Notes under the pieces: model-generated
Databases searched by the model: none
Told to the model about the DNA's origin: nothing
What the model saw: the letters and a program-made list of their open reading frames with translations, nothing else
Assembly: GCF_013282625.1 (NCBI RefSeq)
Contig: NZ_CP054020.1
Location: forward strand, 1,860,001-1,924,000
Source: Thiomicrorhabdus xiamenensis
GTDB taxonomy: Bacteria; Pseudomonadota; Gammaproteobacteria; Thiomicrospirales; Thiomicrospiraceae
Direction: 5' to 3'
DNA length: 64,000 nucleotides
Made by a program: the position numbers and the translations under genes
Shown: positions 2,172 through 29,401 of the stretch, in pieces
Numbering within the stretch: the first letter of the stretch is position 1
How the letters are laid out: each line of letters opens with the position of its first letter

Positions 2172-2517
2172 AATGAAGAAGGCATTATCGGCAAAGATCC
2201 CCCTCTTATCTTGGCGATGGTTCCCTCAGAGATAAGACAAGCGTTCGAAGCAAACGACGATCAACAAACCTCAGCGCGAGTGATTGCTATACAGCAGCCA
2301 ATTAGGGGATCTACGCGCCCAAACTCAATGGCGAGTCGGTTTGTTACACAACGCGAACCAGAAAAGGCTTAACAAGGCGCAAACGCGTTATTAAGGAATA
2401 TGAAATTACATTATCTATAAATCCATCAAATGATTGAATCATCATAAATTCCACTCTTATATATGATAGAAGCGGTTTAATGTTTTTTTGGCATAGATAG
2501 AAAAATGGGAATGCTTC
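2172..2517. other. Intergenic region between kinase and GGDEF-EAL gene
   Basis: About 345 bases without a convincing gene. The kinase reading frame stays open after its TAA for roughly 67 further codons, ending in a TAA near 2372, but the residues resemble nothing I recognise and no strong ribosome site precedes an internal ATG. The last part is AT-rich and probably holds the promoter of the GGDEF-EAL gene. I see no clear terminator hairpin. Confidence 0.4.
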
Positions 2518-4970: not shown

Positions 4971-5036
4971 TTTCAGACATAAAAAAACCGCGACAAGCGC
5001 GGTTGATTTATCAATATGGCGGAGACGGAGGGATTC
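4971..5036. repeat. attL: left copy of the 66-bp attachment repeat
   Basis: Identical to 29263-29328. It contains the 3'-terminal 20 bases of tRNA-Ser (5017-5036, minus strand, with CCA) and the tRNA terminator hairpin (4981-5004). Identity stops at 4970 on the outside and 5037 on the inside. The crossover point lies somewhere within the repeat. Confidence 0.93.
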
Positions 5037-5052
5037 AAAAACTACTATCAAT

Positions 5053-6503: not shown

Positions 6504-6898
6504 TACACTTCCCGTCACATCGAACAAACGATTTCGACTAGTATTAAGTTAGAAGTTTTTTTATATAAAGTAACATTAAAATAAATTAAAAAACAATAAC
6601 TTATAGTCCAAAATAAGGGAAAGCATTATAGCAATCAAACATCACCGCCAGACACCTCAATTCCATCTAAAAAGAAAAACCTCATTCCACAAAACGAGCA
6701 AGACGGCAGCCCCCCCCTATACAAAACTCAACAAACATAAACTTGATAATCGCTAGAAAAAAGCAACCCAGTGAATACAAAAGATGCAATCACTCAGCTA
6801 GGACTTGCTTTATTCTTCGTGTAAATACTTAGGCTGCTTAGTGCACATTTAAACAAATAAAAGTACAATGCAATAATTCGAAAATTCAGTGAAAATAC
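6504..6898. other. Divergent intergenic region upstream of hsdM
   Basis: Very AT-rich, 395 bases, between the minus-strand 453-residue gene and the plus-strand R-M operon. It must hold promoters for both directions. I found no clear -35/-10 pair, operator palindrome or small gene that I could defend. Confidence 0.4.
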
Positions 6899-8446: not shown

Positions 8447-9812
8447 GGAGTATAGCTTTCAAGATTTATTATCTAATATAGTTGATAACAGAGGAAAAAC
8501 CTGTCCAGTAACAGATTCTGGAATTCCCTTGATAGCAACAAATTGCATTAAGAATGACTCGTTATATCCTGTGTATGAGAAAATCAGATTTGTTGATGAT
8601 GAAACTTATCAGAACTGGTTTAGGGGACATCCAGAGCCAGAAGACATTATTTTCGTTTGTAAAGGTAGTCCTGGACGAGTTGCATGGACTCAAAACCCTG
8701 TACCATTCTGTATTGCTCAAGACATGGTTGCAATTAGAGCAAATCAGGATTTAGTTTTTCCTAAATACCTTTTCGCTCTACTACGTTCTCCTAAGACTCA
8801 AAAAAAAATTGAGGATATGCATGTGGGGTCATTGATTCCTCACTTTAAAAAAGGTGACTTTAAAAACCTATACCTAGATATCATCGAAGATAAAGTTATA
8901 CAGAAAAAGATTGGCGATATATATTTCAGCTTTTGTGAAAAAATAGAAGCCAACCGCCAAATCAATCAAACCTTAGAAGAAATGGCGCAGGCGATTTTTA
9001 AAAGCTGGTTTGTCTATTTTGAACCCGTTAAAGCCAAAATCGCCGTCCTCGAAAACGGCGGCACACAAGCCGACGCCACCCTTGCCGCCATGCAAGTCAT
9101 TAGCGGAAAAACTACTCAACAACTACAAACCCTACAAGCTCAACACCCCGACAAATATCAACAACTCCACCAAACCGCCGATCTCTTCCCAAACGCCATG
9201 CAAAACAGCGAACTTGGCAAAATCCCTAAGGGGTGGCGAGTCAGCGAAATTGGAAATGAAGTAACTGTTGTTGGAGGAGGTACGCCATCAACTAAAATCC
9301 CTGAATTTTGGGATGACGGTGAGATTAATTGGGCAACTCCCAAAGATTTGTCATCGCTTCAAGATAAAGTGTTGTTAAACACCGATAGAAAAATTACACC
9401 GGCTGGTTTAACAAAAATTTCATCTGGGTTGTTGCCAGAAAATACTGTTTTAATGTCCTCTCGTGCCCCTGTTGGTTATTTGGCTTTGGCAAAAGTACCT
9501 GTTGCAGTCAATCAAGGTTTTATTGCCATGAAATGTGAGGGTGAACTTACACCGGAATTCGTTTTACAGTGGTGTGACTCAGTCATGGATCAAATCCAAA
9601 ATCGTGCTTCGGGTACAACCTTTATGGAAATTAGTAAAAAGAACTTTAAACCTATTGCCGTAATTGTGCCTTCAAAAGCCGTGATGGAAAGATTTAGCAC
9701 AACTGTTGGTAATTTGTACGATGGAATTAAATCAAATGTCGTTCAATCCAAGAGCTTAGCCAAAATAAGAGATTCATTGTTACCAAAACTTTTATCTGGT
9801 GATTTTAATTAG
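8436..9812 (+). CDS. hsdS: Type I restriction-modification specificity subunit HsdS
   Basis: DNA-recognition subunit that sets the bipartite target of the HsdM/HsdR complex. It is 458 residues with two target-recognition domains: TRD1 near 1-145 and TRD2 near 265-400. Each is followed by a helical spacer (EANRQINQTLEEMAQAIFKSWF after TRD1; a shorter SLAKIRDSLLPKLLSG at the end). A 60-residue Gln/Ala-rich linker precedes the GKIPKGWRVSEIG start of TRD2, typical of the family. It overlaps hsdM by 11 bases. The sequence is more AT-rich in the TRDs than in the central helix region, as expected from TRD exchange. Confidence 0.95.
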   Translation: MSFKEYSFQDLLSNIVDNRGKTCPVTDSGIPLIATNCIKNDSLYPVYEKIRFVDDETYQNWFRGHPEPEDIIFVCKGSPGRVAWTQNPVPFCIAQDMVAIRANQDLVFPKYLFALLRSPKTQKKIEDMHVGSLIPHFKKGDFKNLYLDIIEDKVIQKKIGDIYFSFCEKIEANRQINQTLEEMAQAIFKSWFVYFEPVKAKIAVLENGGTQADATLAAMQVISGKTTQQLQTLQAQHPDKYQQLHQTADLFPNAMQNSELGKIPKGWRVSEIGNEVTVVGGGTPSTKIPEFWDDGEINWATPKDLSSLQDKVLLNTDRKITPAGLTKISSGLLPENTVLMSSRAPVGYLALAKVPVAVNQGFIAMKCEGELTPEFVLQWCDSVMDQIQNRASGTTFMEISKKNFKPIAVIVPSKAVMERFSTTVGNLYDGIKSNVVQSKSLAKIRDSLLPKLLSGDFN

Positions 9813-9833
9813 TAAAGAGTAAAGAGAAGTTTA

Positions 9834-11009
9834 ATGTCAAATTCATGCATCCCTTTAAGTGATATATACCAGCAGAAGATCAACTTTATTATAGGATCAG
9901 GAGCTTCACATGGTTTGTTTCCTACACTATGGCTGCCATTAAAAGACTCTAATGATGAGACTAAAACTGAAACCTTAGAAACCCTTGCCACCAAATTAGA
10001 GCAAGGTGGGTGCAAAAATCATTTAACTTTACTCTTCATGTATTATTTTAGAAAAGTGATTGAGCCAGCAATAAATTTCAATCCTAATGATTTTTTGATT
10101 GATAACCCTTGTGAAAGGGATTCTTCCAGTGACGATTGTCTAAAAAGAAAAGTTTTAGATAATTATGAAACTTTTATAGACTCTATAGTCCGTCTTCTGC
10201 AGCAAAAAAGTGCTTTTAGTCGCCGATGCAATGTTTTTACTACCAACTATGATGGTTGTATTCCTTTCGTAGCTGATTATTTACTTAAAAAGAATTCTCT
10301 TGATTTTGTCTTAAATGATGGTGCAACGGGGTTTCTAGATAAAACATTATCTGCGAAAAATTTTAGTAATTATGTTTGCAGATCTGGAGTGTTTGGAAAA
10401 AACTCTACAGATATTCCGCAAATTAATTTAATTAATCTTCATGGTTCTGCGTATTGGAGAAAAAGTGCTGATGTTATTAAGGTCGATTATTCATCGCATG
10501 AGGCAGATGTTGTTATTCCAGAATCAGTAGGAACAAGTTTAGCTCAACTTGATTCAGTATTGAATGATGCAACAAAAAATACTCGTGATGTTTTAGCTAT
10601 AGATGTTCAACTATCCTCTCAAGAAATTGAATCGTTTTGGAACTCATACAATCAATTACCTATCGTTAACCCAACGAAGTGGAAATTTCATGAAACAGTG
10701 TTTGAAGAACACTATTATCAAATGCTTCGGCTTTTAAGTTACCAATTGGAAGAAGCGAACTCGGTACTCATCAGTTTTGCTTTTTCTTTCGCAGATGAAC
10801 ATATTCTTAACTTAGTAAAACGATCTCTATCAAATCCAAAGCTGAAAGTTTATATCTGTTGCTTTAATGATCAAGAGAAGGCCGTTATGCATGAGCGTTT
10901 TAAAGGGTATCGTAACGTAGAACTTATCGCTCTTGACGGAAAGGTGCTGGATTTTGATGCTTTCAATGAAACAGTTTTTAACGCTGATTTACTTCGAGAT
11001 GGTGAATAG
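9834..11009 (+). CDS. SIR2-like NAD-binding protein, probable defence effector
   Basis: 391-residue SIR2-family protein. Seen: the nucleotide-binding start FIIGSGASHG (residues about 15-24), the TTNYD motif with the catalytic-type Asn at N138, and NLHGS with the candidate catalytic His at H203. In bacterial defence systems such SIR2 domains deplete NAD+ on infection; applied here this is inference. It sits between hsdS and hsdR and directly abuts a HerA-type ATPase gene (stop TAG at 11007-11009, next ATG at 11010), the gene pair known as SIR2-HerA. An AGAG stretch precedes the ATG. No membrane segment is visible, so it should be cytoplasmic. Confidence 0.88.
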   Translation: MSNSCIPLSDIYQQKINFIIGSGASHGLFPTLWLPLKDSNDETKTETLETLATKLEQGGCKNHLTLLFMYYFRKVIEPAINFNPNDFLIDNPCERDSSSDDCLKRKVLDNYETFIDSIVRLLQQKSAFSRRCNVFTTNYDGCIPFVADYLLKKNSLDFVLNDGATGFLDKTLSAKNFSNYVCRSGVFGKNSTDIPQINLINLHGSAYWRKSADVIKVDYSSHEADVVIPESVGTSLAQLDSVLNDATKNTRDVLAIDVQLSSQEIESFWNSYNQLPIVNPTKWKFHETVFEEHYYQMLRLLSYQLEEANSVLISFAFSFADEHILNLVKRSLSNPKLKVYICCFNDQEKAVMHERFKGYRNVELIALDGKVLDFDAFNETVFNADLLRDGE

Positions 11010-12821
11010 ATGAGCATTGATGTAGGAGAAGTTATCGCTGTTAGAGGCACTCAAGTTACGTTGAGGATTTTTGAGGAATCCAGCTTAGAAACTTTGTTTT
11101 ATGAAGGCGACAAATACAAAGGCGTTTCAATAAGGGAATACCTGAGTATTAAACGTGGATTTCGCCAAATTGTTTGTATGGTCGAGGGAGAGTTCCTTGA
11201 TGAAAATCGTTTTGACAACGATGACAATAAAAAACAATACATTAGAAAGGTTGAAGTAAAGCCAATAGGTTATTTCGAGCAAAACAGCTTTTATGATGGT
11301 GTTAAGGTCATGCCAATGATTAAAGATAAGGCCTATTTGTTGAATGAAAAACAAGTTGGTCAAATTTTTAGTCAAGGAGCTGATGGAACCTTCAAAATTG
11401 GCAATATGTTAAAAGAGGATATTCCTGTCTTCCTTCCGTGGAGTAAAATTTTTAATAGTCATATAGGTATCTTTGGAAATACGGGAAGCGGAAAATCTAA
11501 TACTCTAACAAAACTGTATACGGAGTTATTTGATAGTTTCGAAGATGTAATCAAGGGTAAAAGTACTTTCTTACTAATCGACTTTAATGGCGAATATGTC
11601 GGCAACCAATTGATTAAAGATACTTCTAATAAAAAGTCTTATAAATTAAAGACACGAGATGACTCTGGTGACAAATTTCCACTGCCAAGTTCACAGATTT
11701 GGAACACAGAAATTCTTGCTCTGTTGTTTCAGGCTACTGCAAACACCCAAACTCCATTTTTAAACAGAGTTGTCGAGGGAAGAGAAAAATTTAAATCTAA
11801 TCCTGATAGCTTAGCAATTTATATAAAGAAAACATTCGAACATTGTTTTGTATCTACATCCCAAAATAACGATTCTCTTAACCAGTTGAAAGTTATAGCT
11901 AAGCATATTGGTGCAGAAGATCTCGAAGAGAAGTTAAGTAAAATCTTTTGGTATGACCAAGGTGGAAAATTTGCTTGTCATAAACCGCCACCTAGTACGT
12001 CTTGGGAGTTTTTTGATACACAAGATGGTTATGATGCAAACCTTAAACCTATAGTCGACACTATTGATGTTGAAGATATCTCTGTGTTTGATGAATTACT
12101 TGTCAGAATTAACTTGCAACTGTTACGGGATCTGAATAACGGATATATTCAATACGAGCACATTCAACCACTTTTAAAGCGGGTCGAGTCTGCCATGACT
12201 GACTTAATTAAGATATTCAACGTTTCGGATAATGCTGAGAGTCCTTTTAAGCTTTTGAATGTTATTTCCTTGAGAGATTGTAACCAAGCTACGAAGAAAA
12301 TAGTACCGTTATTACTTGCAAAAATGTTTTATCAAGAACATCGAAATTCCGTGACGAACCCAGTAGATAAAACACTTCATTTCATAATCGATGAAGCACA
12401 CAACATACTTTCCCAACAGTCCAATAGAGAGCATGAAAGCTGGAAGGATTATAGATTAGAAATGTTTGAGGAGATAATTAAAGAAGGTCGAAAATTTGGT
12501 ATGTTTTTAACTTTATCAAGCCAAAGACCAGCGGATATTTCTCCAACGATCATGTCTCAACTTCACAACTTTTTTATCCATAGGCTTGTAAATGACAAAG
12601 ATCTTTTTTTAATTGATAACACAATTAGTACCCTAGATCGTATGTCAAAAAGTTTAATTCCCAATCTTGCAAAAGGCAGTTGCGTTGTAACCGGAACAGC
12701 ATTTGACTTACCAATTGTAATGCAAGTTGATTACATTGAAAACAATGAGCATAGACCTGCTAGTGACGATGTAAACCTTCAAAAGCTGTGGTCTGAAAAC
12801 GTAGAGGTGGACTTTTTCTAA
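11010..12821 (+). CDS. herA: HerA/FtsK-type hexameric ATPase, partner of the SIR2 protein
   Basis: 603-residue DNA-translocase-like ATPase. It has an N-terminal beta-rich HAS-barrel-like region (residues 1-130), Walker A FGNTGSGKSN at about 155-164, Walker B FIIDEAHNIL at about 456-465, and the LSSQRPADISPTIMSQ arginine-finger/sensor stretch. HerA family ATPases form hexamers and in defence systems assemble with SIR2 or nuclease partners; that this one binds the upstream SIR2 protein is inferred from adjacency. The gene starts immediately after the SIR2 stop and its own TAA shares one base with the hsdR ATG (TAATG at 12819-12823), so all five genes of the operon are translationally linked. 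Confidence 0.9.
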   Translation: MSIDVGEVIAVRGTQVTLRIFEESSLETLFYEGDKYKGVSIREYLSIKRGFRQIVCMVEGEFLDENRFDNDDNKKQYIRKVEVKPIGYFEQNSFYDGVKVMPMIKDKAYLLNEKQVGQIFSQGADGTFKIGNMLKEDIPVFLPWSKIFNSHIGIFGNTGSGKSNTLTKLYTELFDSFEDVIKGKSTFLLIDFNGEYVGNQLIKDTSNKKSYKLKTRDDSGDKFPLPSSQIWNTEILALLFQATANTQTPFLNRVVEGREKFKSNPDSLAIYIKKTFEHCFVSTSQNNDSLNQLKVIAKHIGAEDLEEKLSKIFWYDQGGKFACHKPPPSTSWEFFDTQDGYDANLKPIVDTIDVEDISVFDELLVRINLQLLRDLNNGYIQYEHIQPLLKRVESAMTDLIKIFNVSDNAESPFKLLNVISLRDCNQATKKIVPLLLAKMFYQEHRNSVTNPVDKTLHFIIDEAHNILSQQSNREHESWKDYRLEMFEEIIKEGRKFGMFLTLSSQRPADISPTIMSQLHNFFIHRLVNDKDLFLIDNTISTLDRMSKSLIPNLAKGSCVVTGTAFDLPIVMQVDYIENNEHRPASDDVNLQKLWSENVEVDFF

Positions 12822-15800
12822 TGCTGATTAACGAAGATACTTTAGAACAAGCCACCCTCCAATGGTTCTCTGATCTTGGATATGAATACGTTTGTGGCTA
12901 TGACATTCAGCCTGACGGCCCTTCACCCGAGCGAGAAAGCTATCATCAAGTTTTATTGAATGAGCGTGTGCAAAAGTCGATGCGAGAGTTTAATTCGCAC
13001 TTGCCAGCACAGGCTTTAGAGCAAGCGTTTGATTTATTAATCGAACGCACTGCACAAGGTTTGGTGAATCGTAATGAGCAGGTCTATTACTGGTTGCGTG
13101 ATGGCATTCCGGTTGAGTATTCCAAAGACGATGAAGTGATTGGCGATAAGGTGCGCTTAATTGATTTTGAGAGTATCGACGCTAATGATTTCCTAGTGGT
13201 TAATCAGTTTAAGGTTAAAGACCTCGCCAAACCACGCAAGCCCGATATCGTACTTTTTGTAAACGGCATTCCATTGGTGGTGATTGAGCTGAAAAACCCC
13301 GCTGATGCCGACACCGATGTGTGGAAAGCTTTCGACCAGATCGAAACCTATAAAGACCAAATCCCATCCCTATTTGAAACCACACTGGCCAATATTATTT
13401 CTGACGGTTTAGAAGCGTTGATTGGTTCGTTGACTGCGTCTAAAGAACGCTATATGCCTTGGCGAGTGGTTAGGGATGAAAACGATATTCCAAAAGGACA
13501 ATGGGCGTTAGAAACACTAATCAAAGGCTTTTGTGACAAACACCGTTTGCTGGAATTTTTCCGCAACTATGTACTGTATTTAGGTAAAGAAAATCGCTTT
13601 AAAGTCATAGCTGCTTATCATCAGTTTCATGGGGTACGTGCGGCGGTGCGTAATGCGTTACTTGCAGTCAATCATAAAAATGATGGCAAAGTCGGTGTCT
13701 TCTGGCATACCCAAGGTTCGGGCAAGTCTTTTAGTGCCTTGTTCTTCTCAGCGATTACCATGACGCACCCAGAAATGTGCAATCCTACGATTTTAGTGGT
13801 GACTGACCGCAATGATTTAGATGGCCAGCTTTATCAAGATTTTGCCGCAGCAGAAAAGATTTTACGTGAAAAGCCGGTGCAAATTGACAGTCGTGATGAA
13901 GTGAAAGCAAAATTGATGAACCGCCCATCCGGCGGTGTTTTTTTTACTACTATTCAAAAGTTTGCGCCATCGGCGGATGAAAACACCTATCCCGTATTGT
14001 CGGACCGCAAAAACATTATTGTCATTACCGATGAATCTCACCGCTCGCAATATGGCCTGCGTGCCACGCTCGATCCCAAAACAGGGAAAATCAAATACGG
14101 CTATGCCAAATATTTGCGCGATGCGTTCCCGAATGCGTCTTTCCTTGGCTTTACCGGTACTCCGATTGATCAAGTGGATAAAGACACCCGCGCCGTGTTT
14201 GGGGATTATGTCTCGATTTACGACATAGAAGATGCCGTGAAAGATGGCGCAACGGTTCCACTGTATTATGAAAGTCGCATTATTGAACTGGATGCCGATG
14301 AAGATGTGCTGAAAAGCATTGATGAGGAAGTCGAATCGATTATTGATGATGACGATGTTAATGTGTCAAATCGTGCTAAATCGAAATGGGCTGCTCTGGA
14401 AGCCTTAGCCTCCGCTGCACCTCGTATTGAAAAACTAGCGGCTGACTTTGTTGAACACTTTGAAAGTCGTTGTGAAAAGCTAGACGGTAAAGCAATGATT
14501 GTGGGCATTAGCCGCAATGCCTGTGTTGATCTGTATGATGCAATTACCAAACTGCGTCCAGAGTGGCACAGTGACGATTTAAACAGTGGTGCGATTAAAG
14601 TCATTATGACCTCATCGGCGCAAGATGGCGCTAAACTTGCCAAGCATTCAACGTCTAAAACCGAAAAAGACACCCTTGCCAAACGTTTTAAAGACCCTGA
14701 AGACCCGCTACGCATTGTGATCGTGCGGGATATGTGGCTAACCGGCTTTGATTCGCCTTCTGTGCATACACTCTACATTGATAAGCCCATGAAAGGGGCA
14801 AACCTTATGCAGGCGATTGCTCGTGCCAACCGTGTGTTTAAAGACAAGCCTGGTGGTTTGGTCGTGGATTACATCGGCATTGCCAATGAGCTTAAAGAAG
14901 CGCTGATGAATTACACCAAATCTGATGGTAAAGGCAAACCGGTGGTGGATACCGCAGAAGCGGCGCAAAAGTTACTGGAAACGGTGGAACTCGCCAGAGA
15001 GATGTTGCATGGCTGTGATTACTCTGGCTTTGAAGATCCTAAAATAGCCATGAAGGTTTTACCACTGGCGATGGATCATATTTGTGGTGTAGATCCGGGC
15101 GAAGTCGGTGCTGAAGTCAGAACTACGGATAATCCAGGTGTTAAACAATATTTGGATATAGTCGCTGCTATGTCTAAAGCACAAGCTTTAGCCGGTGAGC
15201 ATGAAGATGTGTTGCACTTAAAGCCCGAAATCGCTTTTTTTCAAGCGGTTGGCTCAATGCTAAAAAAATTCACCAACACCAAAAAGAAAGTCTCTGATGA
15301 AAATCGGGATCATGCCCTCAAACAGCTTTTATCGCAATCAGTCTATGCGGGTGACGTGATTGATATTTACTCGAAGATTGGTATTGAAAACCCAGATATT
15401 TCGATTTTGGATGAGCGATTCCTTGATGAGGTCGCACACCTTGAGCAAAAGAACCTAGCGGTTGAGTTATTGGAAAAACTGCTTGCAGACAAAATTAAAG
15501 CACGAGGCAAGTTGTTTGTCGCTCAGGAGAAGAAATACTCCGAGTTGCTGGAACAATCCATTATCAAATACCGCAACCGAAGTATTGAAACCGCTCAAGT
15601 CATTGAAGAGATGATCGAGTTGGCCAAGAAATTCAATGACGCTATTGCCAAAGGTGATGAGCTAGGCCTAAACGATGATGAATACGCCTTCTATGATGCC
15701 CTAGAAAAGAACGAAGCCGCTGTAAGAGAGCTTGGAGATAAAACCCTGAAAAAGATAGCGTGTGAACTCACAGCTCTGCTTAAAAAAGAGTCTCGCGTCG

Positions 15801-15952
15801 ACTTTTCTAAAAAAGACAACATCCAAGCCAAGATGCGTAAATCCATCAAACGGCTGCTTCGCAAATACAAATACCCGCCAGACGGACAGCTTGAAGCGGT
15901 AGAGCGTGTGATGCAACAGGCCGTGGCTATTGAAGATAATTGGGTAGAATAA
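12821..15952 (+). CDS. hsdR: Type I restriction endonuclease subunit HsdR
   Basis: Motor and nuclease subunit of the type I enzyme. It is 1043 residues: a PD-(D/E)xK nuclease near residues 135-160 (KPDIVLF followed by VVIELKN), a superfamily 2 translocase with Walker A TQGSGKS (K302), a DEAD-like box as TDESHRSQYG, the FLGFTGTP motif, and the helicase C-terminal motif LMQAIARANR. The C-terminal 250 residues are helical and charged, as in HsdR subunits that dock on HsdM. All catalytic motifs are intact. It is last in the operon and overlaps herA by one base. No terminator hairpin was clear in the 100 bases after it. Confidence 0.96.
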   Translation: MLINEDTLEQATLQWFSDLGYEYVCGYDIQPDGPSPERESYHQVLLNERVQKSMREFNSHLPAQALEQAFDLLIERTAQGLVNRNEQVYYWLRDGIPVEYSKDDEVIGDKVRLIDFESIDANDFLVVNQFKVKDLAKPRKPDIVLFVNGIPLVVIELKNPADADTDVWKAFDQIETYKDQIPSLFETTLANIISDGLEALIGSLTASKERYMPWRVVRDENDIPKGQWALETLIKGFCDKHRLLEFFRNYVLYLGKENRFKVIAAYHQFHGVRAAVRNALLAVNHKNDGKVGVFWHTQGSGKSFSALFFSAITMTHPEMCNPTILVVTDRNDLDGQLYQDFAAAEKILREKPVQIDSRDEVKAKLMNRPSGGVFFTTIQKFAPSADENTYPVLSDRKNIIVITDESHRSQYGLRATLDPKTGKIKYGYAKYLRDAFPNASFLGFTGTPIDQVDKDTRAVFGDYVSIYDIEDAVKDGATVPLYYESRIIELDADEDVLKSIDEEVESIIDDDDVNVSNRAKSKWAALEALASAAPRIEKLAADFVEHFESRCEKLDGKAMIVGISRNACVDLYDAITKLRPEWHSDDLNSGAIKVIMTSSAQDGAKLAKHSTSKTEKDTLAKRFKDPEDPLRIVIVRDMWLTGFDSPSVHTLYIDKPMKGANLMQAIARANRVFKDKPGGLVVDYIGIANELKEALMNYTKSDGKGKPVVDTAEAAQKLLETVELAREMLHGCDYSGFEDPKIAMKVLPLAMDHICGVDPGEVGAEVRTTDNPGVKQYLDIVAAMSKAQALAGEHEDVLHLKPEIAFFQAVGSMLKKFTNTKKKVSDENRDHALKQLLSQSVYAGDVIDIYSKIGIENPDISILDERFLDEVAHLEQKNLAVELLEKLLADKIKARGKLFVAQEKKYSELLEQSIIKYRNRSIETAQVIEEMIELAKKFNDAIAKGDELGLNDDEYAFYDALEKNEAAVRELGDKTLKKIACELTALLKKESRVDFSKKDNIQAKMRKSIKRLLRKYKYPPDGQLEAVERVMQQAVAIEDNWVE

Positions 15953-21341: not shown

Positions 21342-22955
21342 CTATTTACAATCTTCTTTCGATAAATCAAGGGCGAAAATTTCTTTTAAAATTGGCTTAT
21401 AACCTGTATGGCCAAGATTTTCTTGGGCGCTTTCTGCATTGATATTCTTTATTTTTGTTAGTTTTTGCTTATGACACTTTTCGATACCTGCTCGACCAAT
21501 AGGTTCACCATCTTCGAATTTAACCGCTTCCCCTACTTTATATAGAGTCTGAAGTATACGATCACCCGAAGAATAGTAATTATAAATATTTCCTGAAACA
21601 GCCTTATCGATACCAAACCAATTTACTCCCTTGGCTTTCCCTGCATCCTTTTCAACCGTATTATTTACAGCTCCAGCCAATAAATGAACTGTATCAATAA
21701 ACTGTTTATCTTTAGTAGCAAGAGCTGACAAACAAGAATAAATAACCCTAGACCCCAAAGAGTGACCTATCAATATATATTCTTTGTCTGTCCTAGAAAT
21801 GATATCCGCTAGCAAAGCTCCTGTTTGATATGCCTTTACGCTTGCCACAGACCAAGGGTTATTCGCTACCCCCAGAGCTTGGAAAGCCATTCCTAATGGC
21901 GCTACTTTCTTCGCTGCTTTTTTTGAAGCAGACATCGCAAGACTTTTTGCGCCTCTTCCAATTCCAGACTTACCGCCAGTGACCAAGCTATAATCAGCAA
22001 TATCTCTTAATCGCTTTGACTCCCATTTAACATGATAGACCTCATTTTCAGGGTATTTTTCTCTTATTCCTTCAAGCCAAGCATCTGGAGACTTCAAATC
22101 TTCTTGAGTAAGAAAGCCGTCAATGCAAATTACTACTGGCTGCTTGCCATGCTTAATTCTGACAATATCGAATCCTTCAATATCACCATAATAACTGTTT
22201 GCAATTACAGCTCCATAACGCCCCCCTAAAGCAGCTCCCGTTGCGGTTACAACAGCAACACCACCGGCCATACCCGCACCGCCAGCAGCGAGAGCGCCTC
22301 CACCTAAAGCGGCAAGCCCTCCATTTGTTGCTGCTGCACCGCTAAGCCCCAGAAAACTCGAACCTACAGCTCCCCCTATAGCAGGTGCGGCCATTAAAGC
22401 CATTGGTGCAATTGCTGCAACGCCACCAACTGTCATGGCGGTCGTCATACCTATTTTTTTATAGTTACGGTCTGATCTTTGAACAATCTCTCTATATTCA
22501 CCAATGGTTTCAAGTTTCCACGCTAAAGTTTCAAATTTTGCTATAGAACCTTCATGCACTGCACAAAAATTACCAGACCAAATTCCCACTTCATCACTTA
22601 CACTATCTTCTGAATTATCCGCATATTTAGCTTTGTTATCACAAGCACGGCATTTGGTTACTTTGTTCCCGCAGTTATCACACACATAAATATTTCGAGA
22701 TAAACTATTCTTCTCACTTAGAGTGCAAGTTGTCTTTTCAAAACACCATGAACAATAACTTTCAATTTGATCTAGGCCCGAATCCAAATATTCATCTGAT
22801 AATTCTGAAACAGTTTTCTCTACCTTATTTGATACATCTGATGCTAGATCACTCACGGTATCTGTTACACTGCTTGCGACTTCTTTTACATCATCTGCTA
22901 AAGTTGAAGCCTTCTTAAGACCTTTATCTAAAGATTTTTTTAAATTATTAAACAC
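21342..22955 (-). CDS. DUF726 membrane alpha/beta-hydrolase with N-terminal zinc-finger cysteines
   Basis: 537 residues from a GTG start (GAGGGATAAG upstream). Order seen: an amphipathic, LEA-like helical N-terminus (1-60); a Cys-rich part with YCSWCFEKT, VCDNCGN, KCRACDN and FCAVH (about 66-132), probably a zinc finger; a long Gly/Ala-rich membrane segment (about 168-250) with glycine-zipper spacing; then a DUF726/TMCO4-type hydrolase with VVICIDGFLTQEDL, EVYHVKWESKRL and the nucleophile elbow IGHSLGSR (Ser about 390). The final His candidate is in LGHTGYKP. DUF726 proteins are putative membrane lipases or esterases. On a defence-rich island a membrane-attacking effector role is plausible but inferred. 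It is transcribed alone. Confidence 0.8.
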   Translation of the reverse strand: MFNNLKKSLDKGLKKASTLADDVKEVASSVTDTVSDLASDVSNKVEKTVSELSDEYLDSGLDQIESYCSWCFEKTTCTLSEKNSLSRNIYVCDNCGNKVTKCRACDNKAKYADNSEDSVSDEVGIWSGNFCAVHEGSIAKFETLAWKLETIGEYREIVQRSDRNYKKIGMTTAMTVGGVAAIAPMALMAAPAIGGAVGSSFLGLSGAAATNGGLAALGGGALAAGGAGMAGGVAVVTATGAALGGRYGAVIANSYYGDIEGFDIVRIKHGKQPVVICIDGFLTQEDLKSPDAWLEGIREKYPENEVYHVKWESKRLRDIADYSLVTGGKSGIGRGAKSLAMSASKKAAKKVAPLGMAFQALGVANNPWSVASVKAYQTGALLADIISRTDKEYILIGHSLGSRVIYSCLSALATKDKQFIDTVHLLAGAVNNTVEKDAGKAKGVNWFGIDKAVSGNIYNYYSSGDRILQTLYKVGEAVKFEDGEPIGRAGIEKCHKQKLTKIKNINAESAQENLGHTGYKPILKEIFALDLSKEDCK

Positions 22956-23314: not shown

Positions 23315-24139
23315 ATGCACAATATCATTGTTCTCATCGCTACAACCCCAAGAGTATCTATGCTCAAAGAGAATGCGCTTCCTTCCATAATCAATCAGAC
23401 AGTTCAACCTACAGCAGTAGTAATCGTTTCAGATCGCCGTTCTTTAAATAAAGACGAAGTTTTATGCTTTAACACTACTATTGGCAAGGAAATCCCTTTA
23501 TATACAATTACAAACTCAAATAAAGCAGGTGTTGCTGGTAGCTGGAATACAGGAATTGATTTCATATCTAAAAAATATCCAGAGAGCTACATCGCAATTA
23601 TTGATGATGATGATCAATGGCATACAAACCATTTATCAACTTGTATTTCTCACAGTGCTAATGGCACTGCCGATGTAGTTCTCTCTGGAATCAATGTCAT
23701 CACAAATAAAAAGAAGGTTAAAGCTAATATCCCGTTAAATATTTCTATTAATGATTTTCTCGTTGGAAACCCCGGATGGCAGGGATCTAATACATTTATT
23801 AAAGCCAATCTCGCTATCAAAATTGGTGGATTCACAAATGGACAGATAAGCGGAAATGACAGAGATTTCGCTATTCGCGTTTTAGAATCAGAAGCAGTTA
23901 AAATCACTTATACTACTGAAGCTACCGTTGATTGGAGGTGCAATCAATCACCAGAAGCTCTTTCTGCTCCCGGCTCTAAACAAAAACTAAAAGGGTATGC
24001 TCAGTTTTTAAAATTACATGGCCACAAAATGTCTTCTAAAGAGCGGTCATCTTTTTTTGCTAGATCAGAACAACTATTCTCAATTTCCAAACAAGATATT
24101 CTTAAAGAACTCGAACTACTAACCTCAGCCAATGAATAA
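23315..24139 (+). CDS. GT2-family glycosyltransferase
   Basis: 274-residue inverting GT-A fold glycosyltransferase. Seen: an N-terminal strand IIVLIATTPR, the nucleotide-binding area VVIVSDRR, GVAGSWNTGID, and the metal-binding acidic cluster IIDDDDQW near residue 98; later GGFTNGQISGNDRDFAIR, the family ED-like acceptor motif. The donor and acceptor sugars cannot be told. It overlaps the next gene by 8 bases (ATGAATAA), so the two are co-translated. It is part of an island cassette that should act on a surface or secreted glycan. Confidence 0.87.
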   Translation: MHNIIVLIATTPRVSMLKENALPSIINQTVQPTAVVIVSDRRSLNKDEVLCFNTTIGKEIPLYTITNSNKAGVAGSWNTGIDFISKKYPESYIAIIDDDDQWHTNHLSTCISHSANGTADVVLSGINVITNKKKVKANIPLNISINDFLVGNPGWQGSNTFIKANLAIKIGGFTNGQISGNDRDFAIRVLESEAVKITYTTEATVDWRCNQSPEALSAPGSKQKLKGYAQFLKLHGHKMSSKERSSFFARSEQLFSISKQDILKELELLTSANE

Positions 24140-27100
24140 ATATCAAACTCACGCACCAAACAGATACAGCGACATACTTTGTGGACGAAATGTGCAGTTA
24201 ATTCACGATGCCGCTCCTGAATTCAAAAAGGCTCAGGTTTTGATAGCCATACCACATAAAAACCAATATGAAGAGTTAGCTAGAGCTTTAATCAGTGCAA
24301 CCAATCAGACACTAGTAAATCAGCACTTAGCTCGGATTGTTGTAATGGACGATAATTCTGAGCATGACTGGACTGAAAAACTAAAAGGACTACTTAAACA
24401 TCCATCGATCACTCTACTGAAAGCAGAATGTGGTTCACCTGCAAGAGCCCGAAACCTTCTTTTAGATTGGGCAGATAGCCAAACTAATATAAGTTGGGTA
24501 GCCCGGTTAGATGCTGATGATGAATTCCATTCAGAAGACAGTCTTCATGGGTTGTGGAGTTCGGTTCACAAAACAAATAAAGTCGCGGCTATAGGAAGTA
24601 ATCAACTTCGACAAAACGGAAAAATACTACCAGAAGAGAATATTGCTAAACCAGAGGAACTGTGTGATCACATCGAGCTGGCAGAATTCATCGAACGGTT
24701 TGCTTCAGGAAAACAAAACCGCGAACTTCCCTCATGCAACTTACTTCTAAAAACCAATATAGGACTGAGATACCCCAACATTAGAAGCGCTGAAGATCAC
24801 TGGTTTGTCTGTAAACTATTAATGTCATATCAATCAAAAATTGCTGTATGTCCTTACCCTATTTATTCAATTTACTCACTTGAGGGAAAAGACACAAACA
24901 TCAACAAATCCACTTCTTCGTGGCTGGAACAAAGATCTCGACTGGCTTATATGGCTAAAAAGTGGAGTTACTTTTTATCTAAAAAACAAAATGTAATAGG
25001 AGCAGGGTTAGAAGGAATAGCTTTTCTTCATAACAACCAAGTTATAAAGAAATTTTTCCCATGGGCAATTACAGACTCAGAAGTGGATAATCTAAAAAAG
25101 TTAATTTCGAAAAATAACTTACCTATCCCCAAAGTCAGATGGTTCAAAAATAACGGATTATGGCAATATCAAACTGATTACTTGGGAGACATATATAAAG
25201 AATCTAAAATACCTAAACAAAAAATTCTTACTTATCTTAAAAAACTCTATAAAGCTGGTGTAAGTACTCTTAATGTCAAAAGAGAGAATCTACAAATAAC
25301 GCCAAGTGGTGAACTGCAATACATCGACATCGGTAAAGACATCCAACCCTTGAGCACATCAAATTATAGAGACATGTGTGCTCGACTATATTCCATAGGT
25401 ATTCTTGGAAACAAAGATGAAGAAGTGGTTCGTAGATACACTTGGCGCCGACAAGATGAGGCATTAAAAGCTTTGCCAGGCTTTGAACAGTTCTACTCTG
25501 AGCTCATAGCTTCAATGCACCCGCAGTGCACAAGCTACATTAAGGACTCTACACCAAAAGCAACATGTCAAAATAGAACAGTAACATTACTAATTAAATG
25601 CTGTGGACAAGATGCGAAAGTCCTAACAGATCAGGTAGAGCATATCACCACCCAGCTTTGCTATCCAACTACGTTTTCTAAAACTATTCTACTTATAGAC
25701 TCACATCAAGGTGCATTTTTACGCCAATATTCGGAATCAAATCTAAGCTCGGTTATAGAACAGGCTCAAACACTCAAAAAAACAAAGATAATTGATGAAT
25801 TTCTAGTCTCTCCCAATGACTTAGAATCCATTAAAACAACCTACGAAAAATGGTTTGCTTGTTCAGAATGTACAGAAACTCACACCTCAAACAATGCTCC
25901 TCTTTTCCCTCAAATATGGGGGTTTGATCAAATTACGACCCCCTATGTATTACAGTGTGATGTGGACATACTGATTGGTCGACGTAATTGGCAACACAGT
26001 TATTTAGACGACATGTTAGAAGCCTGTTCACCAGAAAATATTTTGAGTGTTGGATTCAATATATCTAAGAGAAGTTCCTGTTTTAACCCTTATCGTGGCG
26101 AGCCAGGAGAGTTTGCCGCTGAAGTTAGATTTGGCCTTCTCGACTTAAGAAAGATTCATCGCCTTCTTCCAATCAAAAATCCAATATCAGGTAATAAGCT
26201 ATCGTTAACATGGCATCGAGCGCTACAAAACACAATGCGTGAAAAAGGTTATCGTGCTCTCAGAGGAGGAGACCCTAGCAGCTTTTATGTGCATCCCAAA
26301 AATGAACATAAGTGTTTACCAGAACTGGGTATCGCCAAAGACTTGATTTCGCAAGGTCGTGAACCTGATAAGCAATACGAACAATTTGACTGGATTCCAG
26401 AAGCAAACTGGAAATATGATCATAGAAATGAACCTGTGGTATTTCTTCTAAAAGGAAGACATACAAACCATGCTTTACTCCAGCGCTGTTTAAATTCCCT
26501 TCGTAATCAAAAAAATCAAGACTTTGGCATTATTCTTCTTGATGACGCGAGCGGCCCTTCCCACAACTGGAGTTACCCACTTTTATTAGGAGAGTTACAA
26601 ATAAAAACAACTTTAATAAGGAGAAGTGTCCCTGTAGGCAGAATGCCCAATTTTCTTATGGCAGTCAAAGAGGTCTGTCAGCGTCCTGAAACGTTAATAG
26701 CGGTGTTAGACCAAGATGACTGTCTAATGCAAAACACTGTCGTTGACTCTCTTCTTGATGCCCAAAAAAATGGTTCTGATTTGATTCAGATGCCGATGTA
26801 CCGCCCCAATAAACCAATAAATCTTTATCGTCCAAGTTATAAGAGCCCAAGAGAGGAAGCAGGTGCAAATGTATGGAGTCATCTAAGGGTATTCACCAAA
26901 TACCTATTTGAGCAAGTACCAGAAAAATATTTTAAACGTCAGGATAAAACGACCTGGTTTGACTCAGTCACTGACTATTTAACAATGCTACCGATGGCAG
27001 AAATAGCAGAAAATCCTACGTTCCTTGACACCGGTTATACATACTGGCATTCACGTAAAGATCGCGACTCTGAAGAAAAACAACAGGAAAATTTATTAAT

Positions 27101-27191
27101 TGAAGAACTCTTATCTATGCCTTCTCTTTTTTATTCTGATAAATTCTCTGTTGTACAAGTGCCAGAATTCTTTGAAGACGAGAAACGCTGA
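24132..27191 (+). CDS. Large multi-domain glycosyltransferase with embedded kinase-like domain
   Basis: 1019 residues with four parts. Part 1 (about 30-250): GT2 domain with VLIAIPHKNQ, VVMDDNSEHDW and ARLDADDEF. Part 2 (about 285-430): a protein-kinase-like fold with glycine loop GAGLEGIAF, a VIKKF lysine, catalytic-loop-like LNVKRENLQITPSG and YIDIGKDI; the usual catalytic Asp of HxDxxxxN appears as Asn. Part 3 (about 480-720): a glycosyltransferase-like unit with a DVD motif in LQCDVDILIG. Part 4 (about 755-1000): a further GT2-like domain with IILLDDASG and VLDQDDC. No membrane segment is seen. It is coupled to the upstream GT2 gene and its 3' end overlaps a convergent gene by 77 bases. 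It probably builds or modifies a surface polysaccharide. Confidence 0.8.
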   Translation: MNKYQTHAPNRYSDILCGRNVQLIHDAAPEFKKAQVLIAIPHKNQYEELARALISATNQTLVNQHLARIVVMDDNSEHDWTEKLKGLLKHPSITLLKAECGSPARARNLLLDWADSQTNISWVARLDADDEFHSEDSLHGLWSSVHKTNKVAAIGSNQLRQNGKILPEENIAKPEELCDHIELAEFIERFASGKQNRELPSCNLLLKTNIGLRYPNIRSAEDHWFVCKLLMSYQSKIAVCPYPIYSIYSLEGKDTNINKSTSSWLEQRSRLAYMAKKWSYFLSKKQNVIGAGLEGIAFLHNNQVIKKFFPWAITDSEVDNLKKLISKNNLPIPKVRWFKNNGLWQYQTDYLGDIYKESKIPKQKILTYLKKLYKAGVSTLNVKRENLQITPSGELQYIDIGKDIQPLSTSNYRDMCARLYSIGILGNKDEEVVRRYTWRRQDEALKALPGFEQFYSELIASMHPQCTSYIKDSTPKATCQNRTVTLLIKCCGQDAKVLTDQVEHITTQLCYPTTFSKTILLIDSHQGAFLRQYSESNLSSVIEQAQTLKKTKIIDEFLVSPNDLESIKTTYEKWFACSECTETHTSNNAPLFPQIWGFDQITTPYVLQCDVDILIGRRNWQHSYLDDMLEACSPENILSVGFNISKRSSCFNPYRGEPGEFAAEVRFGLLDLRKIHRLLPIKNPISGNKLSLTWHRALQNTMREKGYRALRGGDPSSFYVHPKNEHKCLPELGIAKDLISQGREPDKQYEQFDWIPEANWKYDHRNEPVVFLLKGRHTNHALLQRCLNSLRNQKNQDFGIILLDDASGPSHNWSYPLLLGELQIKTTLIRRSVPVGRMPNFLMAVKEVCQRPETLIAVLDQDDCLMQNTVVDSLLDAQKNGSDLIQMPMYRPNKPINLYRPSYKSPREEAGANVWSHLRVFTKYLFEQVPEKYFKRQDKTTWFDSVTDYLTMLPMAEIAENPTFLDTGYTYWHSRKDRDSEEKQQENLLIEELLSMPSLFYSDKFSVVQVPEFFEDEKR

Positions 27192-27870
27192 TTGAAAGCT
27201 GATTGTCATACATCCACCAATTTGAGGTATTTTTCTCATTTCTAGAAAGATAAAAAAGTGGTTCTATAGACTTCAACTTTTCATAATCTGCCTGTTTCAG
27301 CCACTTTTGATTGCTTATATTTGAGAACTCATGCCACAAATGTCGCCCTTCTTTTCTAGATCGCGTTGGCAATTCCAGTAATTCAGAAAAACTAGGGAAA
27401 AACTCAGACTTCCCACCACTATCCACTTTCAACCAAAACTCAGGCCAGTCTAATTGCTCTAACCTAGAAAAAGCAAATCGTCTTTCCCCTAACCAATTAT
27501 GATAAGCAGCAGGTAAGGCTTTTCTATGAGGATAATCTGACGGCCTAATCAAGGAAGGCAGTAAATCCATACGACTTACTCGTATAGGTTCACCGTATTC
27601 AAGCATTGTCATTATTGTCAGGAAGCCCAATGACGGCTTGTTTCCGAGTTGTCTTTCTAACTCTAAACTATTAAATTCAAGCTTCTTAGAAAAGTCTGTA
27701 CCAGGTGTTTTTCCGCAAATAAGGAAATTTTGCTCAACTCCTGATAATTTACTATTGGTGATGGTTAATTGCGTTTTTACATGGCAAGTTAAAGGCTGAT
27801 TAAATCGAATAACCTTATCATGTTCATTCAGGGCTAATTTGCCTTGACCATTCCCAACAATATGCCACAT
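27115..27870 (-). CDS. Putative sialyltransferase-like (GT29-type motif) protein
   Basis: 251 residues. The start IVGNGQGKLALNEHDKVIRF (residues 4-23) closely follows the large sialylmotif of GT29 enzymes (VGNxG...D.HD.V.R.N), which binds CMP-sugar, and PSLGFLTIMTMLEYG near residue 80 resembles the small sialylmotif (PSTG...). The rest is not recognised. The GT29-type call is from motif resemblance only; donor and acceptor are unknown. A GGGGTAGGG stretch lies just before the ATG. Its 3' end overlaps the end of the convergent 1019-residue gene by 77 bases. It forms the third member of the glycan cassette. Confidence 0.65.
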   Translation of the reverse strand: MWHIVGNGQGKLALNEHDKVIRFNQPLTCHVKTQLTITNSKLSGVEQNFLICGKTPGTDFSKKLEFNSLELERQLGNKPSLGFLTIMTMLEYGEPIRVSRMDLLPSLIRPSDYPHRKALPAAYHNWLGERRFAFSRLEQLDWPEFWLKVDSGGKSEFFPSFSELLELPTRSRKEGRHLWHEFSNISNQKWLKQADYEKLKSIEPLFYLSRNEKNTSNWWMYDNQLSISVSRLQRILALVQQRIYQNKKEKA

Positions 27871-27932: not shown

Positions 27933-29120
27933 CTATAAACCAGACTTATTGAAACAGCCTCTTAAATATATTGACCATTCTTCCATCATCTTCTTGCGAA
28001 CATCTAAATACTCAGCTTTATTATAAATTCCACGAATCTTATTTTTCTCTTCATGAGAAAGCTGCTTTTCAATTGCGTCAGCAGGCCACCCCATTTCATT
28101 AAGCATCGTACTGGCCGTATGCCTGAACCCATGCGTTGTTAATACATCAGGGCCGATATCAACCGTTCTCAAAGCCACCCGTAAACTATCAGGAGTTATA
28201 GGCCTAGTTTTCGACCTTGGACTAGGAAACACAAACTGACTATCCGTTTTCACCTCTAGGGCCTCACGCAAGATCCCTTCAACAAAATTACTCATTGGAA
28301 CAAGGTGTTCTCTCTTCATTTTCATTTTGTGGCTTTCAATTCGGACAATCTTCCCATCAAAATCAACATTCTCCCATTTGATTGAGACTAACTCACTTGG
28401 ACGTAAGAACACATGGGGAGCGATCTTCAAGGCACTTGATACAGAGAAACCTCCGTTGTAACTTTCAATTTTAGATAGTACGACTGCTAACTCTTCTTTA
28501 GAAGTAATATGAGCGAAGGATTTTACTGTTTCTTTCTTGAAGACATCTTGAGGTAAATCCCTAGTCGGATCAAAAGAACAGATGCCCATTCCCACTGAAT
28601 ACCTAAAGACACGGCTCGCATAACCACGAACCTTCTTAAGCATATTTAAGGTTCCCTTTGTTTCTATACGCTTAAAGACGTCTAACATATCCATTGCCGA
28701 AATCTCTGCAATGTTTCTATCTTTTAAAAATGGTAGTAAATGATTCTGGCAACGTTCATCAAGATCTTTAGCATAACCTTCACTCCAACTTTCAACATTA
28801 TGACGATACCACTCTAAGTACATATCGTAAAATGTTTTAAACTCTAACTCTGAAGTTAACTCGTCTTGAACTTGTTGACGGGGATCTATTCCTGACTTAA
28901 TCAATGCCTTTAAATCATCCCGGGCACGACGTGCTTCAGCCAGAGAAACTTGCGGGAAGTTACCTAGAGACAGCATGGTTGCTTTGCCATTAATACGACA
29001 GCGATAGCGCCAAGCCTTAACCCCACTGGGTTTTACTTCTAACACTAAACCATGAGAATCCGTTTCTCGATAAAGCTTTTCTCGAGGCTTTAGATTTTTA
29101 ATTTGTGTATTGTTTAACAC
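27933..29120 (-). CDS. int: P4-type tyrosine integrase
   Basis: 395-residue site-specific recombinase that would integrate and excise the island at tRNA-Ser. It has an N-terminal DUF4102 arm-binding domain (IKNLKPREKLYRETDSHGL, SLGNFPQVSLAEARRARDD), a central SAM-like domain, and a catalytic domain with Arg in LRPSELVSIKW, the HGFRH box, His in QLSHEEKN, and a Tyr nucleophile candidate in RGIYNKAEY. All catalytic residues look present. It starts with GTG and the start codon abuts TACTCACA repeats that are candidate arm sites, so the integrase may repress its own transcription by binding there (inference). It lies 143 bases from attR. Confidence 0.95.
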   Translation of the reverse strand: MLNNTQIKNLKPREKLYRETDSHGLVLEVKPSGVKAWRYRCRINGKATMLSLGNFPQVSLAEARRARDDLKALIKSGIDPRQQVQDELTSELEFKTFYDMYLEWYRHNVESWSEGYAKDLDERCQNHLLPFLKDRNIAEISAMDMLDVFKRIETKGTLNMLKKVRGYASRVFRYSVGMGICSFDPTRDLPQDVFKKETVKSFAHITSKEELAVVLSKIESYNGGFSVSSALKIAPHVFLRPSELVSIKWENVDFDGKIVRIESHKMKMKREHLVPMSNFVEGILREALEVKTDSQFVFPSPRSKTRPITPDSLRVALRTVDIGPDVLTTHGFRHTASTMLNEMGWPADAIEKQLSHEEKNKIRGIYNKAEYLDVRKKMMEEWSIYLRGCFNKSGL

Positions 29121-29262: not shown

Positions 29263-29328
29263 TTTCAGACATAAAAAAACCGCGACAAGCGCGGTTGATT
29301 TATCAATATGGCGGAGACGGAGGGATTC
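29263..29328. repeat. attR: right copy of the 66-bp attachment repeat
   Basis: Identical to 4971-5036 and continuous with the intact tRNA-Ser gene. It covers the last 20 bases of the tRNA with CCA and the terminator hairpin. Confidence 0.93.
29273..29296 (-). terminator. Terminator of tRNA-Ser (copied in attL at 4981-5004)
   Basis: Minus-strand hairpin AACCGCG/CGCGGTT with a 5-base loop followed by a T run of about seven. It lies just after the tRNA CCA and forms part of the att repeat, so integration leaves the tRNA with a working terminator. Confidence 0.85.
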
Positions 29329-29401
29329 GAACCCTCGATAGAGCTACAAACCCTATACTCCCTTAGCAGGGGAGCGCCTTCAGCCTCTCGGCCACGTCTC
29401 C
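29309..29401 (-). tRNA. tRNA-Ser (anticodon GCU)
   Basis: 93-base class II tRNA read on the minus strand. Acceptor stem GGAGACG pairs with CGTCTCC, the anticodon stem CTCCC/GGGAG encloses loop CTGCTAA giving anticodon GCU (reads AGC and AGU), there is a long variable arm, a T stem GAGGG/CCCTC with TTCGAAT loop, discriminator G and encoded CCA. It is the integration target of the island and stays intact. Confidence 0.97.

Follow-up and report, generated by a model that had tools for sequence, protein, structure and literature searches.

Asparagine in place of the catalytic aspartate: a candidate pseudokinase domain between the glycosyltransferase domains of a Thiomicrorhabdus xiamenensis protein

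Domain layout of the glycosyltransferase P0001

The stretch of 64,000 nucleotides of Thiomicrorhabdus xiamenensis DNA analysed here (hereafter the window) carries on its forward strand, at positions 24132-27191, the gene for a multi-domain glycosyltransferase (GT) with an embedded kinase-like domain, which we discuss as a candidate pseudokinase. The open reading frame (ORF), a single frame without an internal stop, encodes a protein of 1019 amino acids (P0001) in which a GT2 domain, a kinase fold, a GT-A-like domain and a further GT2 domain follow one another from the N- to the C-terminus. The building blocks of P0001 and its relatives are referred to by letters: A is the GT2 protein encoded upstream (P0002); N and K are the N-terminal GT2 domain and the kinase region of P0001, which are followed toward the C-terminus by the GT regions C and D; B denotes an additional GT-like region and M a methyltransferase.

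Module N (about residues 32-260; positions 24225-24911) has its DxD motif at residues 127-130; module K (residues 272-466) occupies positions 24945-25529; module C (about residues 484-765; positions 25581-26426) has a DxD motif at residues 610-612; and module D (about residues 766-1010; positions 26427-27161) carries a DxDD motif at residues 860-863. Membership of P0001 in the GT2 family is clear (PF00535, 82.8 bits against a cut-off of 23.3), with the match divided between two stretches, the better one at residues 38-162 and the other at genome positions 1886472-1886873 (about residues 781-914). A sub-threshold match to Rhamno_transf was also found on the C-terminal GT2 domain, while the Pfam scan returned nothing for the middle of the protein (the kinase region and module C) and no methyltransferase anywhere in P0001. 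Module C, which belongs to no Pfam family, is homologous to proteins of Bacteroidales and archaea and adds a third GT-like region to the two GT2 domains that a preliminary description of this DNA had recognized. The aspartates D127, D129 and D130 of module N are present in all four full-length sequences (P0001 included), and D860, D862 and D863 of module D in all seven aligned sequences; judged by these conserved DxD-type residues, the GT domains of P0001 are probably active.

The gene for P0002 (positions 23315-24139, forward strand; 274 amino acids; PF00535, E 1.5e-9) lies directly upstream and overlaps the P0001 gene by 8 bp; in relatives from Alteromonas and Bacteroidales, module A is part of the larger protein, joined at its N-terminus or close to it. 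An AlphaFold2 model of full-length P0001 was poor (predicted local distance difference test, pLDDT, of 58.7), module C included. The 50 matches listed by Foldseek for this poor model were glycan polymerases and GTs of wall-polymer synthesis, such as the K4 chondroitin polymerase, heparosan synthase 2 and TarP; none of them is known to have a kinase domain between its GT domains.

The kinase fold of residues 272-466

The preliminary description had proposed a kinase-fold region between GT2-like domains and had suggested structure prediction as a check. Modelled separately with an input of ten sequences, residues 272-466 gave an AlphaFold2 model of good quality (pLDDT 85.0; predicted template modelling score 0.81) with the strands and helices in the order found in kinases. 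Foldseek matched this domain model to 1717 PDB entries at E ≤ 0.001 (best E 5e-7), all 50 matches listed being kinases, and VIA-align gave Z-scores of up to 11.7 over 173 residues at a root-mean-square deviation of 4.2. A profile built from the kinase regions of ten sequences, that of P0001 among them (profile A6), retrieved 808 distinct PDB chain sequences at E ≤ 1 (best E 2.6e-6); all 60 listed were protein kinases, and both alignments inspected place Asn381 on the aspartate of the HRD motif and the tripeptide DIG on the DFG motif. Structure prediction, the two structural comparisons and the profile search thus agree, and the protein-kinase fold of this region can be regarded as confirmed at the level of the predicted model. 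The outcome that the preliminary description had named as its refutation, a predicted structure lacking the kinase fold, did not occur.

The relationship to kinases is a remote one. Neither P0001 nor its kinase domain matches the Pfam kinase models, even with the threshold relaxed to E 1 and E 5, and among the ten single members three match ABC1 and two Pkinase, all weakly (best E 0.0043). Since a profile of only two sequences (A2) found nothing among the PDB sequences other than GSK3 at E 1.4, the homology to kinases becomes clear only with ten sequences. The profiles A4 and A6 also retrieve ordinary kinases from other genomes. The G-x-G-x-E form of the glycine loop, which presumably resembles that of RIO kinases, suggested a RIO/Bud32-like ATPase switch; this candidate was set aside, as Rio2 (1tqi), although second in the VIA-align ranking, has a Z-score tied with those of many kinases.

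Residues of the predicted nucleotide-binding and catalytic site

All the motifs listed in the preliminary description (a glycine loop, a lysine, LNVKREN and a DFG-like IDIG) can be placed within this fold. The glycine-rich loop GAGLE (residues 290-294; positions 24999-25013) is covered by both the ten-sequence and a wider alignment. The latter comprises 27 kinase-region rows of the family (26 of them distinct) from gammaproteobacteria, Bacteroidales and archaea, from which duplicates of the same locus were left out. G290, G292 and E294 are invariant in the ten sequences and in all 26 rows that cover the loop. The β3 lysine, Lys306 (positions 25047-25049), is likewise kept in 10 of 10 and in 26 of 26 covered rows; the 27th row (locus L082) does not extend to this position in that alignment, and a separate match to its N-lobe shows a lysine as well. 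The catalytic loop TLNVKREN (residues 379-386; positions 25266-25289) has Asn381 at the position of the catalytic aspartate and Asn386 as the metal-binding asparagine, and it is followed by the DFG-like DIG (residues 399-401; positions 25326-25334), whose aspartate and glycine are found in 27 of 27 rows. The ten-sequence alignment is invariant at G290, G292, E294, K306, N381, N386, D399, G401, D403 and R418, and this holds at identities to the P0001 sequence as low as 19%.

The HRD aspartate by which active kinases are recognized is thus replaced by Asn381 in P0001, as the preliminary description had noticed, and this replacement extends through most of the family: 25 of the 27 rows have asparagine and two have aspartate, while the metal-binding asparagine (N386) and the DFG aspartate (D399) are kept in every row. 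Both aspartate-containing rows come from one archaeal class (HWDVKPMN in L080, TTDLTPKN in L082), a third member of which (L081) has asparagine. The alignment register is not in doubt, since the loop of the Bacteroidales proteins is otherwise canonical (FSNLKPDN in L041). Among five orthologs both AAT and AAC are used as codons for Asn381, which indicates that the asparagine has been maintained and is no recent accident; the occurrence of the same exchange in marine-bacterial, gut-bacterial and archaeal relatives makes it look like a kept feature rather than decay.

The kinase-like domain is under purifying selection about as strong as that on the GT regions. Its ratio of non-synonymous to synonymous substitution rates (dN/dS) is 0.101 between two Photobacterium copies, against 0.089-0.123 for the GT regions, and 0.194 between Salinivibrio and Vibrio intestinalis, against 0.189-0.231; these two are the unsaturated pairs, every other pair having a dS of at least 2.85 or being not computable. 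A single loss of the aspartate was considered and is not shown by the tree of module K, which requires at least three changes between aspartate and asparagine, has long branches and is not resolved at its base; it was calculated with six outgroup kinases picked by their HxD motif and with the columns of the aspartate/asparagine trait kept in the alignment.

Relatives of P0001 and the modular build of the family

A search for the same type of fusion, also suggested in the preliminary description, uncovered kinase-GT relatives in gammaproteobacteria, Bacteroidales and archaea. The 95 genomes of the window's own kin gave, beyond the genome itself, a single weak match to module C (G080); the A2 profile recovered, from 369 genomes of the class, the window's own genome only; and P0001 had matches in 14 of 398 genomes of the phylum. 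Apart from the match in its own genome, none of these was stronger than E 5.9e-6, and the one in G379 proved to be a true family member. A pattern scan of a collection of 84,980 genomes yielded nine loci. In the Vibrionaceae, the family of V. intestinalis, the A6 profile matches 58 of 247 genomes. Fourteen of these genomes have an E-value lower than 1e-60 (G985, G986 and G987, known before, among them), and these strong matches divide into eight of the window type (1007-1026 amino acids) and six of the Alteromonas type (1116-1148 amino acids); of the weak Vibrionaceae matches, a minority was read individually. Matches were also found in 13 of 196 genomes of the family of G379 (two strong), in 12 of 247 genomes of the order of a Bacteroidales member (strong only for that member itself), in 7 of 150 genomes of the class of an archaeal member (four at E 6.6e-11 or better, the query member included) and in 2 of 37 genomes of the order of G1534, both previously known members.

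Inspection of 24 weakly matching loci gave 13 with an ordinary HxD loop, nine that were not read in the right frame and two of the asparagine type. The latter (L048, positions 1333-3249, reverse strand; L049, positions 103-2022), both from the search of the Bacteroidales order, encode proteins of 638-639 amino acids with another kinase-like C-terminal region, and their catalytic loops, YINFTPEN and YINFTPVN, again have asparagine at the aspartate position. Pattern scans of viral contigs revealed no relative of P0001 or of its kinase region, and annotated phages gave no match. The plasmid collection contained one record for P0001 and two for the Alteromonas kinase region, with copies on plasmids of Salinivibrio and Pseudoalteromonas.

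In Vibrionaceae, Bacteroidales and archaea alike, the modules A, C, D and K recur, side by side or joined in one protein, in several arrangements. In the window and the Vibrionaceae orthologs the arrangement is A / N-K-C-D, with the slash marking separate genes; the proteins of Alteromonas, Oceanobacter and Pseudoalteromonas are A-K-B; and those of Bacteroidales are A-B-K-M-C-D, in one case (L037) with an epimerase fused in front. Among the archaeal loci, L081 spreads A-B-K / M-C-D over two overlapping genes, L038 encodes B-K-M (partly masked), and L082 a stand-alone K-like protein of 244 amino acids. The remaining one, L080 (positions 6728-10036), joins K, a region without a Pfam match, C, D and a C-terminal histidine phosphatase domain (PF00300, E 3.2e-8), so that a kinase region with the catalytic aspartate, a phosphatase and GT domains are present in one chain; a phosphatase domain is found in none of the eight full-length asparagine-type proteins scanned with Pfam (seven bacterial, one archaeal). 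Across 15 distinct family loci (17 sources, less the duplicate L017 = L040 and less L018, which does not belong to the family; L061-L071 were left out because of their short length), C-D occurs in ten and an A-like GT in 14, which ties P0002 to the kinase-GT protein.

Genes beside the unit recur as well. A homologous radical SAM gene accompanies it in both domains of life (Salinivibrio L003, P. lipolyticum L035 and archaeal L080), with an identity of about 40% between the archaeal and Vibrionaceae proteins; a search of the window's genome for the gene carried by the Salinivibrio and P. lipolyticum cassettes came back empty, which on its own says little. In L034, L035, L037, L039 and L041, and more distantly in L080, the unit has epimerase genes or parts of them next to or within it; together with the polymer-type GTs, these epimerases suggest that the product of the family is a glycan or glycoconjugate. 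A SLOG-like gene comes next in the three Bacteroidales loci and in one archaeal locus; of these, L039 was scanned and matches PF18306. Proteins of the Alteromonas type (L020, L040, L042) are followed by genes for a GTP cyclohydrolase II, an asparagine-synthase-like protein and an arylamine N-acetyltransferase, an order taken from the annotation for L020 and from Pfam for L040 and L042, where the cyclohydrolase is fused to NADAR. This conserved gene order looks like a small-molecule pathway, and it was found once on a Pseudoalteromonas plasmid typed as mobilizable.

Downstream of the P0001 gene, a convergent ORF on the reverse strand (P0003, 251 amino acids; positions 27115-27870) has homologs beside the gene in four Vibrionaceae orthologs (L003, L034, L035, L036). 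The 3' ends of the two genes overlap in antisense by 77 bp (positions 27115-27191), and the overlap recurs in these orthologs, with 80, 80, 71 and 32 bp, respectively. P0003 has no Pfam match up to E 5; its motifs HIVGNG...VIRFN and PSLGFLT presumably resemble those of GT29 sialyltransferases, and assignment to that family was rejected, as neither Pfam nor a PDB profile search supports it.

The mobile island around the GT cassette

The GT cassette lies within an island of 24.3 kb bounded by direct repeats of 69 nt that are 99% identical. The left repeat (positions 4971-5039) resembles an attachment site; the right one (positions 29263-29331) overlaps the 3' end of a tRNA-Ser (GCT) gene (positions 29309-29401, reverse strand; detected with ARAGORN), the integration target. 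A gene for a tyrosine-recombinase integrase of 395 amino acids (positions 27933-29120, reverse strand; PF00589, E 1.8e-25; PF13356, E 4.7e-23) adjoins this tRNA gene. The G+C content is 37-38% across the cassette versus 45-53% downstream of the island. In the module K tree the P0001 sequence is sister to the Photobacterium galatheae copy (support 100/97), and from this grouping the unit was probably acquired from Vibrionaceae.

The same island carries a Type I restriction-modification system (hsdM, hsdS, hsdR; positions 6899-15952) with SIR2 and HerA genes between hsdS and hsdR, and PADLOC models match all five genes. Between this core and the GT cassette lies a gene for a DUF726 protein (positions 21342-22955, reverse strand; PF05277), whose sequence matches PDC-M09A, a candidate family of PADLOC, with a best E of 8.4e-11. 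None of the three cassette proteins matched a PADLOC model, and PHROGs gave no match inside the kinase region; a role of the cassette itself in defence therefore finds no support beyond its neighbours.

A proposed nucleotide-binding pseudokinase within a multi-GT enzyme

We favour, with moderate confidence, the interpretation that the central domain of P0001 is a nucleotide-binding pseudokinase, descended from an active kinase, that organizes or gates a multi-GT glycan-assembly enzyme. P0001 would be one main enzyme of a small, mobile and modular glycan-assembly unit, in which its two GT2 domains, its GT-A-like domain and the separate upstream GT2 protein would build a glycan or glycoconjugate stepwise. 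An active kinase within the family would have given rise to the central domain through the exchange of the catalytic aspartate for asparagine, with the residues that hold ATP and Mg2+ kept; the predicted nucleotide binding would serve either to hold the GT domains in a given arrangement or to gate them, and the product would not be phosphorylated by this domain. We prefer this interpretation because HER3 and the JAK JH2 domains, which have asparagine at the same position, bind ATP, and because the glycan-modifying kinases WbdD and O7 ORF6 need their aspartate. That the lysine, the asparagine and the DFG aspartate are retained speaks in favour of nucleotide binding and against a simple spacer.

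The preliminary description had left the choice between a pseudokinase scaffold and a sugar-kinase-type phosphotransferase. With asparagine in 25 of 27 rows, the pseudokinase is the better of the two, although the word scaffold goes further than the data do. Phosphotransfer by P0001 itself appears unlikely from its residue pattern; the term sugar-kinase-type phosphotransferase may instead describe the ancestor of the domain, because an archaeal relative keeps the aspartate (HWDVKPMN) and because the glycan kinases WbdD and O7 ORF6 act together with GTs or are joined to them.

Several observations weigh against the interpretation that we favour. The position of the αC glutamate (residue 317) has Glu in three and Asp in two of ten sequences, although the helix alignment is uncertain here, and the loop lysine Lys383 (Lys168 of PKA) varies (Lys 14, His 11, Ser 1, Thr 1 of 27). 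As two archaeal relatives keep the aspartate and the base of the tree is not resolved, the direction and number of the changes are not settled. HER3 and JAK2 JH2, with the same asparagine, are weakly active in vitro, so that a complete lack of phosphotransfer is not certain. The partner of the domain is not fixed either, since in proteins of the Alteromonas type K is linked to different GT modules, and the poor full-length model makes the domain interfaces and the placement of the GTs relative to the kinase region unreadable. The case as a whole is built from sequence and a predicted structure.

The most serious competitor is an active, atypical phosphotransferase or ATPase, which would transfer phosphate or AMP to an acceptor able to react without a catalytic base (for example a carboxylate or a phosphate of the glycan) or hydrolyse ATP as a mechanical switch. 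The conservation of Asn386 and Asp399 in 27 of 27 rows and of Lys306 in all those covered is what such an enzyme would show, and the invariant Glu294 of the glycine loop, Asp403 and Arg418 (10 of 10) hint at a selected active site; furthermore, WbdD and Klebsiella O7 ORF6 have catalytically active kinase domains, and one archaeal relative of the aspartate type has its histidine phosphatase domain. These two catalytic domains, however, lose their activity when the aspartate is replaced (D351 by Ala or Glu in WbdD, D441 by Ala in O7 ORF6), and no phosphatase domain accompanies the eight scanned asparagine-type proteins. We therefore consider this explanation rather unlikely for P0001.

Even less probable, in our view, is a leftover domain that serves as a structural linker and no longer binds nucleotide. 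It would explain the lost catalytic aspartate and the poor conservation of the αC glutamate and the loop lysine, but a pure spacer would have no need for the invariant β3 lysine, metal-binding asparagine and DFG aspartate, nor would one expect purifying selection about equal to that on the GT regions. That there is no kinase fold at all and the motifs match by chance, as the silence of the Pfam kinase models might suggest, has a negligible chance of being true: AlphaFold2, Foldseek, VIA-align and the ten-sequence profile all return kinases, the weak matches of single members to ABC1 and Pkinase point the same way, and the idea is already contradicted.

Within the pseudokinase interpretation, a bolder and rather doubtful extension may be drawn. 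A pseudokinase family common to Bacteria and Archaea would act inside multi-GT enzymes as an ATP-responsive gate on glycan assembly; its ancestor would have had an active kinase counteracted by a phosphatase domain of the same polypeptide, a combination still found in one archaeal protein from the class of the Methanomassiliicoccales, and the family would have spread by mobile islands and plasmids.

Comparison with known systems

Kinase-GT fusions and bacterial pseudokinases are both known already, each separately. WbdD is the kinase-methyltransferase chain terminator of the E. coli O9a antigen, in which Asp351 is required for activity (PMC3482155), and it is a protein separate from the GT polymerase (PMC11231755). 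P0001 resembles WbdD in having a kinase-fold domain that would take part in glycan assembly with GTs, and a methyltransferase accompanies the kinase region here too, but in the Bacteroidales relatives and two archaeal loci. P0001 itself differs from WbdD in its asparagine at the essential position, in the location of the kinase domain inside a GT and in the lack of a methyltransferase match. O7 ORF6 of Klebsiella pneumoniae, which consists of methyltransferase, kinase, coiled-coil and GT2 modules (PMC11231755), likewise combines a kinase-fold domain with GT2 modules in one polypeptide; its kinase is active and depends on D441, however, and its domain order differs from that of P0001. When the plasmid collection was searched with the K-M segments of L038 and L039, nothing came up beyond two proteins of this family and one methyltransferase, a result that speaks neither for nor against a place of the kinase in the Lani_1194/NoeA kinase-methyltransferase family (PMC9758233).

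Among pseudokinases, HER3 (with Asn815) and the JAK JH2 domains have asparagine at the catalytic position, bind ATP together with a single cation and serve chiefly as regulators, with the weak in vitro kinase activity of HER3 and JAK2 JH2 mentioned above (PMC4718504). Like P0001, HER3 combines asparagine at the position of Asp166 with retained equivalents of Lys72, Asn171 and Asp184. The αC glutamate is missing in HER3 (PMC4718504). Unlike P0001, these are eukaryotic signalling proteins that regulate tyrosine kinases and contain no GT, and the homology is only remote. A 2025 review of bacterial Ser/Thr pseudokinases lists, among 42 kinase families, five pseudokinase families and two rich in pseudokinases (PMC12599244). 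Its ActPs2 pseudokinases share the exchange of the HRD aspartate for asparagine, but they almost always have the β3 lysine replaced by arginine and mostly a deletion in DFG, whereas P0001 keeps K306 and D399-G401. The excerpts of this review do not mention a GT partner of pseudokinases ("glycosyl" occurs only in the reference list), and the titles and abstracts of open full-text literature matching pseudokinase or kinase domain together with glycosyltransferase describe no GT-embedded pseudokinase. The Myxococcus pseudokinase EcpK, proposed as a scaffold in exopolysaccharide synthesis (PMC12004946), is likewise tied to bacterial polysaccharide synthesis; in contrast to P0001, it is of the bacterial tyrosine kinase (Walker motif) type with a different fold, and its partner is a co-polymerase and no GT.

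The family described here supplies natural aspartate and asparagine versions of the domain side by side, with which the effect of the exchange can be tested. The role known for kinase domains in glycan assembly is that of chain terminators; if the pseudokinase interpretation is true, the kinase fold has also been recruited as a non-catalytic part of polysaccharide machines.

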